Assembly: GCF_000526195.1 (NCBI RefSeq)
Contig: NZ_JAFP01000001.1
Coordinates: 904,001-968,000 of the forward strand
Source of the DNA: Hippea sp. KM1
Lineage (GTDB): Bacteria > Campylobacterota_A > Desulfurellia > Desulfurellales > Hippeaceae
Direction of reading: 5' to 3'
Length of the DNA: 64,000 nucleotides
Shown here: positions 25,956 to 34,163 of the stretch, one piece after another
Layout: every line of letters begins with the position of its first letter
Position numbering within the stretch: the stretch's first letter is position 1
Translations under genes and position numbers: made by a program
The notes under the pieces: generated by a model
The model's input: the letters and a program-made list of their open reading frames with translations, nothing else
Database searches by the model: none
Told to the model about the DNA's origin: nothing

Positions 25956-28900
25956 CTAAAACTTACCATCCGGTGAATAGACCCAGCGGAATTCTATATA
26001 AGCATTCAGACCAACCCCGCCGGCATTTGTTATATAAACCTTAGCAAAATGCCCCTCCTTTGTTCTGATGCAGTATGTATGGCCAATCTTTACCTTGGTC
26101 ATGGCATAGTATTCAGTATAGCCTGTTTTTGGACAGGCCTTTACACTTTCCAAGGGAACGGCGCCCATATCCCTGACCTGTCCGACATTGAAGTAGGGTT
26201 TGTTGGCCTGGGGAACCTTGGGGTTTACATAGCCAGATGCAATATCCTCCTCGCTGTTTTTGTATCTTCCCGTCTCAAAATCCAAGGAATAGCCGCCAAA
26301 TTTCGGGTTTGGTGCATGGGTCAAATAGCCGGTCTTGACCTTATTGGTTGCTTTGTTTTTACTGTTTTGAGCCTCAAACACCATAAAGAAGCTGTCGCCT
26401 TCAACATTTGCTATGTAAGAATATGTCTTGCTCTTGGATGGTGTGAACTTGTTGATGATAGTAACCGTTGCAGTGCCGCTTTTTTTGATCTTACCGTCAA
26501 CCCTCCACGGTATAGACAGCTTTATTGAATACCTTATGAAGTTTGGATCATCCTCAAAACTCCTAAATGATACCAAGGCTGGCTTGCCAAAACTCAAAAC
26601 ACTTACGCCGTTGGCCCTGTTTTTTGAGCATATATCGACCCAGGCAGAGGCCAAGTCGGAATCCTTTAAAAAACCCCTAATATCCCTTCCTTCGGAATAG
26701 TATCTGGCAAACCTTCTTAAGAACAACTCGGCTTTGAGAAGAAAATCCTCATAATCTATCGTAAAACCCATTTGCGTTTTTTGGTTTGAGTAGTTCTCTA
26801 TCGTAAGGCTGCAATAGGAAACAAACGGATTTGATTTAATAGTGCATCTTGCCAGGTTGCCATTTACAGTACAATTTGACTTCACAGCGCCGCAATTTAT
26901 ATAGGCCTTTTTAGGATAGCACTTCTTAAGGTTGCAGGCAGGCTTTAGGTATGCCTCGATGTTGATGGGGTATGGATATAAGGCTGCAGACCACTTCTTT
27001 ATCGCATGGCCGTTTATCTTTATCGTCGTAATCTTGGGCGGGGCAAAGTATCTCTGCTTATTTTCCATTCTAACTATCCTTTCCTCATAATCCGATATGT
27101 TAAAGGATGGTTTAAATGGTAAGGCCTTGGCAAAACCCAGATACTTATTACACGCCCATGCGTTGTTTTTTGCTATGCACTCATCGAGCCTGTTTTTTAT
27201 CTTTATCTCGATAAATTTGAGTTTTTCCAGGGTTGAAACGGCACTTTCGAAATCGGATTTAAACGAATTGGAACAGTAAGGGGTCTCTATTCCTCGATAG
27301 TTATTCATGAAGGAGTTGTATGCATTCCTTAAATCGGATGGCCACAGCTTTAGTTTCGATGCAACCCTCCTCATCTGCTCTATAAATCGGTCATCCTCAA
27401 GGTTTCGCTCCTTTATATGCTTGCACTGATTAAGCTGTTGGTAGGCCTTCTGCTTTAAGGATTCATAGTAAGACAATTTATGATAGACCTTCTCCGATAG
27501 GGCCTGTCTCTTTATCCATTCAATTTGGGACTCATCCACCCCTCTATCGCCATCTAAGTTAGAAGGCAATGCCCTTGTAATAAGGTAGTTGAGTTTCTTC
27601 ATATATCCAACGAATTTTTCAACATCACTAAAATCAGCAGACCCTTTTTGTTTTTTGGATGCCTCAAACACCAATATGGATAGGGTTTTGTAATAGTTTA
27701 ACTGCTGAGAGAGAAAATCCCTGTCGCCCATAATTGTGTCGTAGTCGTTTAAATAGTAATTCTGCAAATCCTCCAATTTGTTTATGGCAGATGCAGCCTT
27801 CGGTATGTGGCTTTTGTAATCGTCGATGCAGTGCATGTTGTACTTTGAATAGACCTCATATGTTAAATACTCCTCTATCTTGTCCTCAAACTCCCCCTCT
27901 AATACGCCAAAATTCCTCAAGTAATCGGAGAATTCAGCATTGAGCCTATCCTCTTTTTCTGCGATAAAAGAGGCAATACTGTATGTCTTTTCAAGGCAGT
28001 CCATAGACTCATAAAACACCCTCTCAAAATACCCGCCCGACAGCTTGCCCTGATTGGAAAGCCTAAAAAGCTCGTTTATTAGATAATGGTTGTATTTACA
28101 CCGGTTGTTTTTGCTGAATGTATCTATTTCCCTTTTTGCCTTCTTAATGCGACTCAACATGTCGTCCTTTTCACATATGCTTTTGTTTAGCCTTTTTAGA
28201 TCCTCCTCTGCCTTCTCTCTTGTTGCTTTTGCCTGATTATAAAAATCTTGAGCCTTGCTTATGAAAGATTCTGCTTCTTTTCTTTCAACATAAGGCAGTA
28301 TATTGTTCTTCATTGCGCCAAATAAAAAGTTATTGGCCGACAGGTATTGCCTGTAATTTATGTTTTTATCGATAAAAGCATCTTTTAGTCTTCTTAGATA
28401 GGAGACATACCTGCCTAAATCTATCCTTGCTGTCTTACTGCCGCTATTTAGCTGTTTTTTGATGCTTTGAATATCCCTATTGATGCTGCTTACTATCTCA
28501 TCCCTGAATCTTCCAAAGTTCCTTTGAGTTATCACATTAACAACCACATATACCGGCACATCGGATATCTCCTTCTTGAGCTTTTGAAAATCCCCCTTAG
28601 GCGGCACCGAGACACTCTTTTTAGGTGTGGCCTTTTTGGAAGCCTTCTCGATGTTTCTTCTAAAATCCCCATCCAGCACAAACAGCCTTAAATAATCCAG
28701 ATTGGCCTCATACCCTGCAAGGCTTAGTTTTTTCATAATCTCCACCACATCCTTATAGGTAAGCCGCTCAAGCAAAGAGATAAAACGCTCATAGTCGGCT
28801 ATGGTTAGGTTGGAGTTGGAGGCCTTATTTATTGCGCATACCTTCAAAACGGTTGTCTTGTAATCCTTTTCCTCCATAAACCGTCTTATGTTGTTGATGG

Positions 28901-29621
28901 TTATAGCCTCGTTTGCACATCTCAATTTCTTCACTGCCGCCCTGACCATATACCTTGCCTTCCATTTCAAATACCTGATCTCTTGCTGCTTCTGTTTGGC
29001 AGCGGCCTGAAGCCTCCTTAAGGCCAAAAAGTATTTCCTGTATTTAGTGTTTACCTCTAAGGTCTTTGACCACATCTCAAACTTCAACTGCTCTATCCAC
29101 TTATCCCTATCCTTAAAAAACTCGGTTCTGCCAAGCCTCATGCGATTATCGTCAAACCATTGGTCAAACATAGTTCTAAGCGTTCTTATATCGTCAACCC
29201 TTCTGGATGCCTTCCATCTTTCCATGCAAGGCAGTAGAAAATCCTTCAAAAATAGCCTTCTTTCAACATTCTTTCCCCAGCTTTGCACCGACTGAAGTGA
29301 GTATTTGGCAAAATCCCAGGCATAACCAACTATACTGCCCCCTGTTGAGCCCAACAAAAATCCAGCGATCTGCTTGGCCGCCTCCTCGCTTATTGTGTTT
29401 TTAGCCTTATCAAATTCACCGTGGGCGAATTGGTCTATAGCCTGTGTTATGCTTTCAACAGGAAGGTCTGTCTCAAGGACATCCTCAAGCATATCGTGCA
29501 ACTCTTGAATGTAATATTGTTTCTCTATTTTATTAAAATCCTCAGCTGTGATTTGGGCTTGAGCATTGAAAAACAGAAAGAATACAACAAAAACAACACC
29601 AATAACGGATTTTGTTCTCAT
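25956..29621 (-). CDS. Large secreted protein of unknown function (1221 residues)
   Basis: The start at 29621 is chosen because GGGAGGATGGG precedes it and a Sec signal begins there (MRTKSVIGVVFVVFFLFFNA, then QAQ); an upstream in-frame start adds 18 polar residues. The mature protein is highly charged, with long Lys/Arg/Glu-rich helical stretches between about residues 150 and 900 that look coiled-coil-prone. A Cys-rich part (ACNLKKC..., INCGAVKSNC...) lies around 960-1010. The last ~200 residues read as beta-rich (SIPWRVDGKIKKSGTATVTI, FNVGQVRDMG). No family recognised. Periplasmic or surface location is expected. It stands alone, divergent from the aroF leader. The 234-bp gap below it (25722-25955) shows only the tRNA promoter and AT-rich sequence. 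Confidence 0.8.
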   Translation of the reverse strand: MRTKSVIGVVFVVFFLFFNAQAQITAEDFNKIEKQYYIQELHDMLEDVLETDLPVESITQAIDQFAHGEFDKAKNTISEEAAKQIAGFLLGSTGGSIVGYAWDFAKYSLQSVQSWGKNVERRLFLKDFLLPCMERWKASRRVDDIRTLRTMFDQWFDDNRMRLGRTEFFKDRDKWIEQLKFEMWSKTLEVNTKYRKYFLALRRLQAAAKQKQQEIRYLKWKARYMVRAAVKKLRCANEAITINNIRRFMEEKDYKTTVLKVCAINKASNSNLTIADYERFISLLERLTYKDVVEIMKKLSLAGYEANLDYLRLFVLDGDFRRNIEKASKKATPKKSVSVPPKGDFQKLKKEISDVPVYVVVNVITQRNFGRFRDEIVSSINRDIQSIKKQLNSGSKTARIDLGRYVSYLRRLKDAFIDKNINYRQYLSANNFLFGAMKNNILPYVERKEAESFISKAQDFYNQAKATREKAEEDLKRLNKSICEKDDMLSRIKKAKREIDTFSKNNRCKYNHYLINELFRLSNQGKLSGGYFERVFYESMDCLEKTYSIASFIAEKEDRLNAEFSDYLRNFGVLEGEFEDKIEEYLTYEVYSKYNMHCIDDYKSHIPKAASAINKLEDLQNYYLNDYDTIMGDRDFLSQQLNYYKTLSILVFEASKKQKGSADFSDVEKFVGYMKKLNYLITRALPSNLDGDRGVDESQIEWIKRQALSEKVYHKLSYYESLKQKAYQQLNQCKHIKERNLEDDRFIEQMRRVASKLKLWPSDLRNAYNSFMNNYRGIETPYCSNSFKSDFESAVSTLEKLKFIEIKIKNRLDECIAKNNAWACNKYLGFAKALPFKPSFNISDYEERIVRMENKQRYFAPPKITTIKINGHAIKKWSAALYPYPINIEAYLKPACNLKKCYPKKAYINCGAVKSNCTVNGNLARCTIKSNPFVSYCSLTIENYSNQKTQMGFTIDYEDFLLKAELFLRRFARYYSEGRDIRGFLKDSDLASAWVDICSKNRANGVSVLSFGKPALVSFRSFEDDPNFIRYSIKLSIPWRVDGKIKKSGTATVTIINKFTPSKSKTYSYIANVEGDSFFMVFEAQNSKNKATNKVKTGYLTHAPNPKFGGYSLDFETGRYKNSEEDIASGYVNPKVPQANKPYFNVGQVRDMGAVPLESVKACPKTGYTEYYAMTKVKIGHTYCIRTKEGHFAKVYITNAGGVGLNAYIEFRWVYSPDGKF

Positions 29622-29692
29622 CCCATCCTCCCTTTCTAAAAATATTACCTGATAAACTATATCGTATTTCTTCAATCAAGAAAATAAAAAAC

Positions 29693-29721
29693 TTGCAAAA
29701 CGGAGATTTCTTTGGTATAAA
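29693..29721 (+). promoter_or_regulatory. Sigma-70-like promoter for the aroF leader
   Basis: TTGCAA (29693-29698), 17 bp, TATAAA (29716-29721). Transcription should start near 29728, only about 3 bases before the leader ATG. Confidence 0.65.
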
Positions 29722-29730
29722 CTCCTCACT

Positions 29731-29832
29731 ATGAAAAAGCTGGATCTGTTTGAGAAGGGATATTCGGTGTATTTCACATACTTTACATACTTTAACTTTA
29801 ACTATTACTGGTTTTTTGGGGGAGGGGGATAG
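29731..29832 (+). CDS. Aromatic-rich leader peptide of the DAHP synthase attenuator
   Basis: A 33-codon ORF (MKKLDLFEKG..., stop TAG 29830-29832). It encodes 7 Phe, 6 Tyr and 1 Trp, clustered in codons 11-29 (for example YFTYFTYFNFNYYWFF). This density of the pathway's end-product codons directly before a competing-hairpin terminator and the first gene of aromatic synthesis is the classic design of a pheL/trpL-type leader. No Shine-Dalgarno is visible and the promoter spacing suggests a nearly leaderless mRNA. Too short for usual gene finders. No other function is implied for the peptide. Confidence 0.82.
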   Translation: MKKLDLFEKGYSVYFTYFTYFNFNYYWFFGGGG

Positions 29833-29887
29833 TCCAGCTTAGCGGCTGTTTTGTAGATTCACCGAGCCGTTTGAATGGGCTATCCCC
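29825..29887 (+). promoter_or_regulatory. Predicted antiterminator pairing
   Basis: GGGGATAGTCC (29825-29835, spanning the leader stop codon) can pair with GGGCTATCCCC (29877-29887), eleven pairs with one G-U. Inside, GCGGCT (29842-29847) can pair with AGCCGT (29865-29870), which is the left arm of the terminator. A ribosome stalled on Phe/Tyr codons would leave this fold free; one reaching the stop codon would cover it. Confidence 0.65.
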
Positions 29888-29916
29888 AGGGATGGTCGAT
29901 TCAAACGGCTTTTTTT
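29865..29916 (+). terminator. Attenuator terminator upstream of aroF
   Basis: AGCCGTTTGAAT (29865-29876) pairs perfectly with ATTCAAACGGCT (29899-29910), 12 bp, followed by six further T. It sits 32 bp before the DAHP synthase ATG, with no other gene between. Confidence 0.88.
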
Positions 29917-29947
29917 ATTGGCCGAAAATTTTTTGGGAGGTGTTTAG

Positions 29948-30979
29948 ATGATTATCGTTATGAAGCGTTCGGCGACAGACGAAGACATTGAAAGGGTCAG
30001 CAAGAAGGTTGAGAGGATGGGTCTAAAAACCCATATATCCAAGGGCAGTCGCAAAACCGTTATAGGTGTCATAGGTGATATAGACAGCAAGATAAAGGAG
30101 TACGATCCAGTGGCCACCTTATCCTTAGATAAGGCCGTTGAGAGTGTCCAGAGGGTCTCAAAACCCTATAAATTGGCATCGAGGGAGAGCAGAAACGACG
30201 ATACCATCATCGATGTGAAGGGGGTAAAGATCGGCGGTGATACATTCACGCTCATTGCAGGCCCCTGTTCTGTGGAAAACAGGGAGCAGATATTAACCAC
30301 GGCAAGGGGCATAAAGAAGTGTTCAGCCCACATGTTGAGGGGTGGTGCATTCAAGCCGAGGACTTCACCTTACAGCTTCCAGGGTCTTGGAGAAGAGGGC
30401 TTGAGGTTGTTAAAAGAGGCATCGGAGGAGACAGGCCTGCCGGTTGTTACGGAGGTGATGAATCCAAAGGATCTGGATGTTGTGCTTAAATACGCCGATG
30501 TGCTCCAGATAGGGGCCAGAAACATACAGAACTTCTCCTTACTCAAGCTGGTCGGTCAGACGGATAAGCCCGTTCTCCTAAAGAGGGGTATGGCAACAAC
30601 GATTCAGGAGTTCTTAATGAGCGCTGAGTATGTAATGAGTGAAGGCAATGCCGATGTTATTCTCTGTGAGAGGGGCATAAGGACATTCGAAACAGCAACA
30701 AGGAACACATTGGACATCTCGGCTGTTCCTGTTTTGAAAAAGGAGACCCATCTGCCCGTTTTAATAGACCCATCCCATGCCGCAGGCAAAAGGGATTATG
30801 TGCCTGCACTCTCAAGGGCAGCCATAGCCGCAGGTGCCGACGGTCTTTTGATTGAGGTTCATTACAACCCCCAGATTGCCGTCTCCGATGCAGCCCAGCA
30901 GCTAACCGTTGAGGAGTTCTGTGAATTGGTTGAAGAGCTAAGAAGGATCGGTGAGGTGGTGGGCAAAAAGATCCAGTAA
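29948..30979 (+). CDS. aroF: 3-deoxy-7-phosphoheptulonate (DAHP) synthase, type I-beta with N-terminal regulatory domain
   Basis: A 343-residue first enzyme of the shikimate pathway, joining PEP and erythrose 4-phosphate. Residues 1-70 form the ferredoxin-like domain ([20 protein letters not shown]) that in Thermotoga DAHPS binds Tyr/Phe for feedback inhibition. The barrel carries [46 protein letters not shown] and [10 protein letters not shown]. Full length. GGGAGG precedes the ATG. Transcription is probably attenuated by aromatic amino acid supply (leader at 29731), giving two layers of control. It ends before the separate hom promoter. Confidence 0.95.
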
Positions 30980-31048: not shown

Positions 31049-32347
31049 ATGGAAAGTGTAAATGTGGGTTTGTTGGGTGTTGGAACCGTTGGCAGCGGCG
31101 TTGTAAAGATTCTAACCAACAACGCTGACATAATAAAAAAGAGGCTCGGCTTTGAGTTAAACCTAAAAAGGGTCTATGCCAAACAGATAAAGGACGATGT
31201 TAGGCCGCTCCTTGAGGGCAAGATAGCATCGGGTTATGAGGAGTTGCTTGCAGACGACATCGATATAGTCGTTGAGCTTATTGGCGGGACGAGCTTTGCA
31301 AAGGAGTTTATATTAAAGGCGATACAGGCCAAAAAAAGCGTGGCAACGGCAAACAAGGCACTGCTTGCAGAATACGGATACGAGATATTCTCAGAGGCCT
31401 TCAAGAACAGGGTGGATATAGGCTATGAGGCTGCTGTTGCAGGTGGAATCCCCATAATCAAAGCCATAAAAGAATCACTGGCTGCCAACCATATAAAATC
31501 CATCAAAGCCATAGTAAACGGCACCTGCAATTACATATTGTCGGAGATGTTCTATAAGGAGATCTCATTCGAGGAGGCCCTAAAGGATGCCCAGGAAAAG
31601 GGATTTGCCGAGGCAGACCCTACATTCGACATAGAGGGCATCGATTCAGCGCATAAAATGGCCATATTAAGCTCCATATCGTTTGGCGATAATGTCAAGG
31701 CCAAGGATGTTTACACAGAAGGTATAACCAACATAGACCTTCTGGATATAAAGTTTGCAGATGAGTTCGGCTATAGAATAAAGCTCATCGGCATAACCAA
31801 TCTGTTGAACGGAAGGATAGATGTAAGGGTGCATCCAACACTGATAAAGAAAGACGACATACTGGCAAAGACAGACGGTGAGTTTAACGCCATCAAGGTA
31901 AAGACAGATATGAACGATGAAACTGTCTATATAGGAAAAGGGGCAGGGAGCCTGCCTACGGCAAGCGCCGTTGTGGCAGATATCATGGATATAGCAAGAA
32001 ACATCAAAAACAAAACAAATCTCAGGGTTCCTTTGATGGCATTCCCTTTTAATTATGTGAAAAAAAGGGATATTATCAACATAGACGATTTAACCATGAG
32101 CTATTACTTAAGGTTCACGGTGAAGGATCAGGCCGGTGTTTTATCTAAAATCTCAGGCATCTTGGGTGAATACAACATAAGCATCAAAAGCGTTGTCCAA
32201 TTGGGTAAAAACGAGGAATGGGTGCCGTTGATTGTATTTACACACAAGGCCAAAGAAAAAGACATAAAACAGGCGTTAACAATCATAGAGAAGCTCGATA
32301 TAATAAAAGAAAAGGTGCTTTTGGTGAGAGTGGATGATGAAGAATAA
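31049..32347 (+). CDS. hom: Homoserine dehydrogenase
   Basis: A 432-residue enzyme reducing aspartate semialdehyde to homoserine for Thr, Met and Ile. The NAD(P) motif is [15 protein letters not shown], the catalytic domain has [39 protein letters not shown] and EAD.TFD(I)EGIDSAHK, and a C-terminal ACT domain ([20 protein letters not shown]) should sense threonine. ATG 31049 is chosen for its AAGGGAAGGG site; the longer frame from 31028 lacks one. It overlaps argH by 14 bp. Confidence 0.95.
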
Positions 32348-34163
32348 AAAACTGTGGGGCGGTAGGTTCTCCTCATCAACCGATAGCGTAATGGAGGCAT
32401 TCTCAGAATCTATCAGTTTTGATAAGAGGCTTTATGAATACGATATAGCAGGCTCGATAGCACATGCGCAGATGCTTGCAAAACATGGCATAATAAAGGA
32501 TGAAGAGGCCGATAAAATCATCGAGGGCTTGAGAAAGATAAAGCGGATGATAGATGAGGGGGAGTTTGAGTTTAGGATAGAAGACGAAGATATCCACATG
32601 AATATAGAGCGCAAGCTCATAGAGCTTATAGGTAAGGTGGGCGGTAAGCTCCATACGGCAAGGAGTAGAAACGACCAGATAGCGTTGGATATAAGGCTAT
32701 TCTTAAGGGATGCCACCATAGAGATAATAGACAAGCTTACAGGGATTCTAAAACACTTAGTTGAGCTTGCAGAAAAGCATATAGATGTTGTTATGCCCGG
32801 CTTTACCCATCTTCAGCACGCACAACCGGTCTTATTCTCGCATTACATACTCGCCTATTATGAGAAGTTCAAAAGGGACAGGGACAGATTCAGGGATACA
32901 CTCAAAAGGATCGATGTGTTGCCGCTTGGCAGCGGGGCGTTAGCAGGCACAAGCTTTCCCATAGATAGAAAGTATGTGGCAGAACAGCTGGGTTTTTCAA
33001 CCATATCGAGAAACTCCATGGATGCCGTATCGGATAGGGACTTTGCCATAGAGTTTCTATCAGATGTTGCTATATGCGCCATGCACGCCTCAAGGTTTGC
33101 CGAGGAGATGGTGATATTCTCCTCCCAGGAGTTTGATTTTGTCGAACTGCCCGATGAGTTCTGCACAGGCTCAAGCATAATGCCGCAGAAGAAAAACCCG
33201 GATGCTATGGAGCTGATCAGGGGTAAAACGGCAAGAACTTACGGCAATCTAATACAGATGCTGGTTTTAATGAAGGCTCTGCCATTAACATACAACAGGG
33301 ATATGCAGGAGGATAAGGAGTCTCTCTTTGACTCGATTGACACAATAATGGGCATATTGGATGTGCTAAACGGCGTTATACCCAGGATTAAACCCAAAGT
33401 AGACTCATTACAGAAGGCGCTGGATAAAGGCTTTATAACAGCAACCGATTTAGCGGATTATTTGGCAAAAAAGGGTATGCCGTTCAGGGAGGCGCATAAG
33501 ATCGTTGGTCAAATCGTGGCCTATGCTGAACAGAACAATAAAGAATTAAACGATATATCCATAGAGGAGCTAAAGTCGTTCTCGGATTTAATAGAAAACG
33601 ATGTGCTTGATGTGCTCCATTACAAAAAGGCCGTAAACTCAAGAACGAGTTATGGTGGAACGGCAAGGGAGAATGTGATCAGGGTTATAGAGGAGATAAA
33701 AAAGGAGCTTACCGTTAGGAGTGATGGTAATACGGTTGAATGCCAGAGATGCGGCTATCCGGTTAAGGTTTACAGAAATCCGATTCCAACGGTTGATGTT
33801 ATCATAAAGGTGGAAGGCAAGGTTGTTCTTATAAAGAGGAAGAATCCCCCATACGGATGGGCCATACCGGGCGGTTTTATAGATTACGGTGAGTCCGCCG
33901 AGGAGGCTGCCGTAAGGGAGGCCAAAGAGGAGACGGGGTTGGATGTTAAATTGGAGGGTATCTTAGGTGTCTATTCAGATCCGAACAGGGATCCCAGGCA
34001 GCACACCATAACAACGGTGTTTATAGCCACCGCATCAGGAAAACCGAGGGCCGGTGATGATGCAGAGGGCGTGGGCCTGTTTGATAGTAATAATCTGCCA
34101 GAGCCCATAGCGTTTGACCATAAGAAAATACTTAAAGACTTCTTTGAGAAACATAATGCCTGA
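32334..34163 (+). CDS. argH: Argininosuccinate lyase fused to a Nudix hydrolase domain
   Basis: A 609-residue fusion. Residues 1 to about 460 are a full argininosuccinate lyase ([30 protein letters not shown], and the signature loop [12 protein letters not shown] with Ser at about 280), the last step of arginine synthesis. After a short linker, a [10 protein letters not shown] segment leads into a Nudix domain with a perfect box ([20 protein letters not shown] then TGL, about 514-536), as in ADP-ribose-type pyrophosphatases. ArgH alone is about 460 residues. The frame is continuous and there is no in-frame stop at the junction. Whether the chain is processed is unknown. It overlaps hom by 14 bp and recJ by 8 bp. 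Confidence 0.92.

Follow-up and report, generated by a model that had tools for sequence, protein, structure and literature searches.

In the pheL-pheA and trpL-trp systems of Escherichia coli, the regulatory codons lie in a leader whose stop codon sits beside the 5' arm of an antiterminator, and this antiterminator and a terminator are mutually exclusive. In Sinorhizobium meliloti, the start site of trpL falls at the ATG itself. The aroF product catalyses the opening step of aromatic amino acid synthesis, in the common pathway, and DAHP synthases with a ferredoxin-like domain are inhibited by Tyr and Phe through that domain. In the GTDB taxonomy, the class Desulfurellia belongs to the same phylum as Campylobacter.

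The E. coli attenuators are summarised in PMC11802643. For a DAHP synthase gene, PMC4046766 and PMC11802643 (the latter citing Neshat et al. 2014) describe the aroR-aroF arrangement of Corynebacterium glutamicum, in which the gene is preceded by an attenuator and by a leader containing Phe-Tyr-Phe codons in a row; aroF transcription there is reported to rise under Phe limitation (PMC11802643), and four unspecified leaderless transcripts are listed among eight small mRNAs of this species (PMC4046766). In Acholeplasma, the candidate uORFC-13-1, with one or more Phe codons and an intrinsic terminator, lies before aroF, and attenuation has been proposed from comparative sequence alone (PMC8632094). 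The leader peptides LeuL, TrpL and MetL, reported for Campylobacter jejuni, belong to amino acid operons and give a signal in ribosome profiling (PMC11955535). In a survey of Actinobacteria, phenylalanine and tyrosine operons showed no conserved regulatory structure on their upstream side (PMC1262725).

The locus considered here lies in a stretch of 64,000 nucleotides (the window) from Hippea sp. KM1, whose genome forms a single contig (1,742,311 bp). Judged by comparative sequence analysis, the region ahead of its aroF gene very probably acts as a ribosome-mediated attenuator of transcription, tying aroF expression to how much charged aromatic tRNA is available. It combines three features of trpL/pheL-type systems, namely (i) a leader rich in regulatory codons, (ii) a terminator between leader and gene, and (iii) an antiterminator 5' arm that a ribosome at the stop codon would cover (Table 1). 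From its domains, PF18152 (residues 1-72) and PF00793 (residues 86-331) in a single protein, and from its closest solved structures, 1rzm and 1vr6, matched over the full length, the predicted AroF is a DAHP synthase with a ferredoxin-like regulatory domain. A search of genome contigs placed its relatives at 75-86% identity in Hippea sp. and other Desulfurellales/Desulfurellaceae.

Table 1. Features of the aroF leader region (window coordinates) and loci with aromatic leaders outside the class
Feature	Position	Strand	Remarks
Predicted promoter	29693..29721	+	-35 TTGCAA 29693-29698, 17-nt spacer, -10 TATAAA 29716-29721
Leader peptide ORF	29731..29832	+	33 codons, 14 aromatic; dense block at codons 14-29; ends GGGG-TAG
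Antiterminator outer helix, 5' arm	29825..29835	+	Overlaps last Gly codons and stop codon
Antiterminator inner helix, 5' strand GCGGCT	29842..29847	+	Pairs with 29865-29870
Intrinsic terminator hairpin	29864..29911	+	12 perfect lower pairs, 29865-29876/29899-29910; more upper pairs
Antiterminator outer helix, 3' arm	29877..29887	+	Inside terminator upper stem and loop
Terminator T run, 7 T	29910..29916	+	Present in 21/21 loci
Shine-Dalgarno-like sequence of aroF	29935..29942	+	GGGAGGTG
aroF	29948..30979	+	DAHP synthase, N-terminal ferredoxin-like domain, 343 aa
Aromatic leaders outside the class			L040-L068, L076 Desulfuromonadales; L045/L070 NC10; L071-L074 Dehalococcoidia; also L022, L028, L091

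Several neighbouring or related genes were recorded alongside. Divergent from the aroF leader, on the minus strand at 25956-29675, the window encodes a protein of 1239 aa, for which there was no Pfam match, and a 609-aa ORF at 32334-34163 looks, from its translation judged by eye, like a fusion of argininosuccinate lyase with a C-terminal Nudix-type domain. At G000:C1:238786-239523 (L096:1766-2587), adjoining apparent sugar-nucleotide genes, lies another DAHP-synthase-like gene, which encodes 273 aa and is 41% identical over the catalytic domain only; the other genomes of the genus contained no equally strong second match. This match was rejected as a second copy of the attenuator system.

The leader ORF translates as MKKLDLFEKGYSVYFTYFTYFNFNYYWFFGGGG, and its composition (7 Phe, 6 Tyr and 1 Trp) is as the sequence-only reading had counted it. 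It is the most aromatic of the 1158 short ORFs in the window, with aromatic residues at 10 of 14 consecutive codons against 8 in the next best, and none of the 57,806 ORFs in 30 Markov-1 copies of the window reaches 10 in 14. Elsewhere in the genome, a search for YYWFF-like codon runs gave 4 pattern matches, not above the 8 of a reversed-pattern control, so that this pattern revealed no further copy. Within the class, each of the 21 readable aroF loci, from three families (L001-L021), has a leader rich in aromatic codons and a terminator ending in a T run, with an antiterminator in the interval from the leader's end to the terminator. Genomes G020, G022 and G024 represent a fourth family, in which aroF has no such leader and is placed elsewhere in the aroF tree; at one locus of this family (L029), aroF lies directly 3' of an upstream open frame. 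Since the conserved blocks of all three leader-bearing families contain Trp as well as Phe and Tyr (YYWFF; SYWWYYFYSW; YWYYFYFW), all three aromatic tRNAs are expected to be sensed. The earlier proposal, attenuation of aroF by charged tRNA-Phe and tRNA-Tyr, is thus strongly supported as to its ribosome-mediated mechanism and needs widening as to its signal, as the attenuator probably senses Trp tRNA in addition.

The YYWFF block and the GGGG that follows it are well conserved within the genus, as would also be expected if the nascent peptide YYWFFGGGG, like TnaC, sensed a free aromatic metabolite and, by arresting inside the ribosomal exit tunnel, set the same RNA switch. Among the families, however, the order of the aromatic residues and the tail both vary (YYWFF-GGGG, SYWWYYFYSWQE, WYYFYFWGGSLPV, AYYFWFYQERST) while the block itself persists. 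Moreover, arrest of the TnaC type induces a gene when its amino acid is in ample supply, the opposite of what a biosynthetic gene requires. Peptide arrest is therefore an improbable account of the locus, and stalling at aromatic codons is the reading carried forward here.

Downstream of the leader, the perfect 12-bp terminator stem and its T run were recovered as the sequence-only reading had described them, as were both alternative pairings, i.e., the 11-bp stem joining the leader stop region to the terminator and the inner GCGGCT/AGCCGT pairing. The terminator has a ΔG of -35.0 and a z score of -6.0 (29862-29925), and 31 nt separate the end of the T run from the aroF start. The outer antiterminator helix comprises 11 consecutive pairs, one of them G-U; at 20/21 loci, folding predicts an inner helix that captures 3 or more bases from the left base of the terminator.

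Lack of conservation in relatives, whether of the aromatic codons or of the pair of competing stems, had been named as grounds for abandoning the attenuator reading; both are kept class-wide, and both mutually exclusive helices bear compensatory changes. The comparison used both arms of antiterminator and terminator in 17 distinct sequences. In the antiterminator, 83% of cells are paired and 9/13 pairs have compensatory changes (e.g., U-A/C-G/G-C and A-U/G-C in the core), counts that are favoured by the alignment of the arms by hand and eye around the proposed pairing, an effect which slid and shuffled controls partly offset. Its covariation score was 0.459, compared to 0.287 ± 0.025 for shuffled arms (reached in 0/500) and 0.16-0.23 for slid partners, with 28 double-change cells against a shuffled mean of 9.8. 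In the lower 10 pairs of the terminator, aligned in the same way, 100% of cells are paired, 6/10 pairs show compensatory changes, and there are 17 double-change cells against a shuffled mean of 3.5 (0/500).

These results also bear on two further explanations. Strong intergenic terminators are common, and the one before aroF might serve for a fixed low read-through or mark the end of an upstream transcript, with the aromatic ORF an incidental decoy. Such an ORF is nevertheless present at 21/21 loci, whereas only 16/1300 Markov-resampled upstream regions contain at least 7 aromatic codons in 14, and the antiterminator covaries; a constitutive terminator is thus highly improbable. Terminator/antiterminator pairs are found as well in riboswitches and T-boxes, and a metabolite- or tRNA-binding RNA might use the same terminator. 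The structure conserved here comprises the ORF and the helices of the switch, with no further conserved domain, and no Rfam family among 4227 (known amino acid leaders included) matched at the gathering threshold, either for the region in the window or for 13 related loci; at a permissive threshold, nothing relevant was returned for the leader region. We accordingly give this last explanation a negligible probability and retain a switch governed by translation of the leader.

In this attenuator model, the position of the ribosome would decide between two structures that, folded separately, have nearly equal energies (antiterminator, -35.3 kcal/mol; terminator, -35.0 kcal/mol). On the complete RNA at computed equilibrium, the terminator wins at every modelled ribosome position, and the switch must therefore be kinetic, acting during transcription. 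Folding was also modelled for an RNA still lacking the right arm of the terminator. Where a ribosome placed at the fifth-last aromatic codon masked to +14, the antiterminator had a probability of 0.71-1.00 at 21/21 loci, compared to 0.00 at 21/21 loci with the ribosome at the stop codon. The last aromatic codon precedes the antiterminator core by 7-17 nt (14 nt in most congeners). A protector (1:2) stem, which would prevent read-through on an RNA free of ribosomes, was also looked for at the 21 loci and is not general: base-pairing between the first 45 nt and at least 6/13 bases of the 5' arm is predicted in 11/21 and in none of the other 10, and the stem is absent in L002 and in the third family (f3).

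From the ORF, the stems, their conservation and covariation, and this geometry, we infer the following course of stalling, read-through and termination, and with it the direction of regulation. Transcription would start on the leader ATG or immediately ahead of it, with a ribosome then entering the leader behind the RNA polymerase. Were Phe-, Tyr-, or Trp-tRNA scarce, the ribosome would stall within codons 14-29, leaving 29825-29835 free to pair with 29877-29887, while 29842-29847 would pair with 29865-29870; the base and top of the terminator's left arm would thus be captured before its right arm is synthesised, allowing the polymerase to read into aroF. With plentiful aromatic tRNAs, the ribosome would reach the stop codon at 29830 and cover the antiterminator 5' arm, such that the terminator would form and transcription would cease at the T run.

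The placement of the start site draws on the promoter region. Throughout families f1 and f2 (18/18 loci), a TTGC/TTGA element is followed after 16-17 nt by a TATAA-like hexamer and, 7-10 nt further on, by the leader ATG (9-10 nt past the -10 element in the window's own family). This predicted promoter emerged only through comparison of loci; a sigma-70 scan with stricter rules returned none upstream of the leader. Ahead of the leader ATG in the same 18 loci, no Shine-Dalgarno match longer than 3 nt was found, and because the ATG also lies just behind the -10 element, the leader ORF of f1 and f2 probably starts on a leaderless mRNA, as judged from sequence. Taking the usual distance from -10 element to start, transcription would begin within ~3 nt of the ATG. 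Putative translation of the leader in these two families rests on this leaderless arrangement together with its conservation. In f3, a Shine-Dalgarno element (GGAG or GGGG) stands ahead of the leader ATG. Should the leaderless start hold true, the locus would offer a simple natural system in which transcription and translation are coupled without a Shine-Dalgarno sequence.

These genomes also have a sibling leader, similarly laid out, ahead of trpE (G000:C1, ~236.2-236.5 kb, minus strand, L113; also L097-L115 of the same class). It ends in WWW (e.g., NNWWWGS), its arms look by eye like an antiterminator of their own, and several loci have two intrinsic terminators in series. Here too, a -10-like element is found a short distance ahead of the leader ATG. 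The aroF and trpE leaders suggest a division of labour within the same genomes, with the common-pathway gene aroF reading Phe, Tyr and Trp codons and trpE reading Trp alone. At the loci checked, the pheA open frame overlaps or closely trails an upstream open frame.

Beyond the class, 34/65 further aroF upstream regions, a sample biased towards relatives of the query, contain a leader with at least 7 aromatic codons in 14, compared to 16/1300 Markov-resampled regions. These leaders occur in nearly all Desulfuromonadales sampled and at four Dehalococcoidia loci; two NC10 loci reach 6/14. Terminators are present at 34/36 leader-bearing loci outside the class, with pairing such as GGCCGTCTGCCCGGGG with ACCATGGGCAGACGGC; several Desulfuromonadales have a second terminator nearer aroF. 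A duplex test against shuffled arms gave p ≤ 0.02 at 14/36 of these loci, the test being weak in Desulfuromonadales and the other phyla because the arms are G+C-rich, and no covariation is claimed there. The GTCTGCC arm is read as P-S-A in Desulfuromonadales and as V-C-P in NC10, and these different frames favour a conserved RNA over a conserved peptide. Taken with the variable residue order of a persistent aromatic block, they argue that codons and RNA are kept rather than peptide sequence. On the aroF tree, the leader label requires 7 changes, 3 of them forced by well-supported branches, such that one or several origins are both possible. We therefore raise only tentatively, and consider somewhat doubtful, the idea that one ancient, previously undescribed attenuator, an aromatic-codon block followed by a GTCT(A/G)CC-like arm read in different frames, has travelled with the ferredoxin-domain-type aroF across Desulfurellia, Desulfuromonadales, Methylomirabilota (NC10), and Dehalococcoidia, sensing three aromatic tRNAs and being leaderless in Desulfurellales. 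The recurrence before aroF of the same type in other phyla points to attenuation as a widespread and mostly unannotated property of this gene.

Compared to known systems, the Desulfurellia aroF attenuator shares with E. coli pheL and trpL the regulatory-codon leader, the stop codon beside the antiterminator 5' arm, and the exclusive terminator. The E. coli leaders differ in that they control pheA or trp genes rather than a DAHP synthase and have Shine-Dalgarno sequences, and the protector (1:2) hairpin that is regular in them is not conserved in Desulfurellia. C. glutamicum aroR, from another phylum, likewise pairs an aromatic leader peptide with an attenuator before a DAHP synthase gene; unlike it, Desulfurellia has a dense Phe/Tyr/Trp block and a two-helix antiterminator, and its enzyme carries a ferredoxin-like domain, a comparison that leaves the enzyme type of C. 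glutamicum aside. The uORFC-13-1 candidate is confined to Acholeplasma and environmental sequences, has at least one Phe codon, and possesses a ribosome-binding site (PMC8632094). S. meliloti trpL encodes an attenuator leader peptide on a leaderless transcript, as proposed for Desulfurellales. It differs in responding to Trp only and in having a leader peptide that also acts in trans (PMC7298713). The extracts of PMC11955535 include no aroF leader for C. jejuni and present its leaders as generally detected only in Campylobacter. A search of the open-access literature yielded no account of an aroF leader from either Desulfurellales or Desulfuromonadales. The sequence-only statement that no example was described in a lineage of this kind thus holds for aroF in the class, as far as the sources consulted extend, and must be narrowed in view of the Campylobacter leaders (PMC11955535), aroF attenuation in Corynebacterium (PMC4046766, PMC11802643), and its proposal in Acholeplasma (PMC8632094). 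The principle is thus known, while this lineage and this design appear undescribed. Our analysis adds a class-wide, covariation-supported attenuator in a deep-branching anaerobic lineage, in which the AroF enzyme would probably be made only when aromatic amino acids are short.
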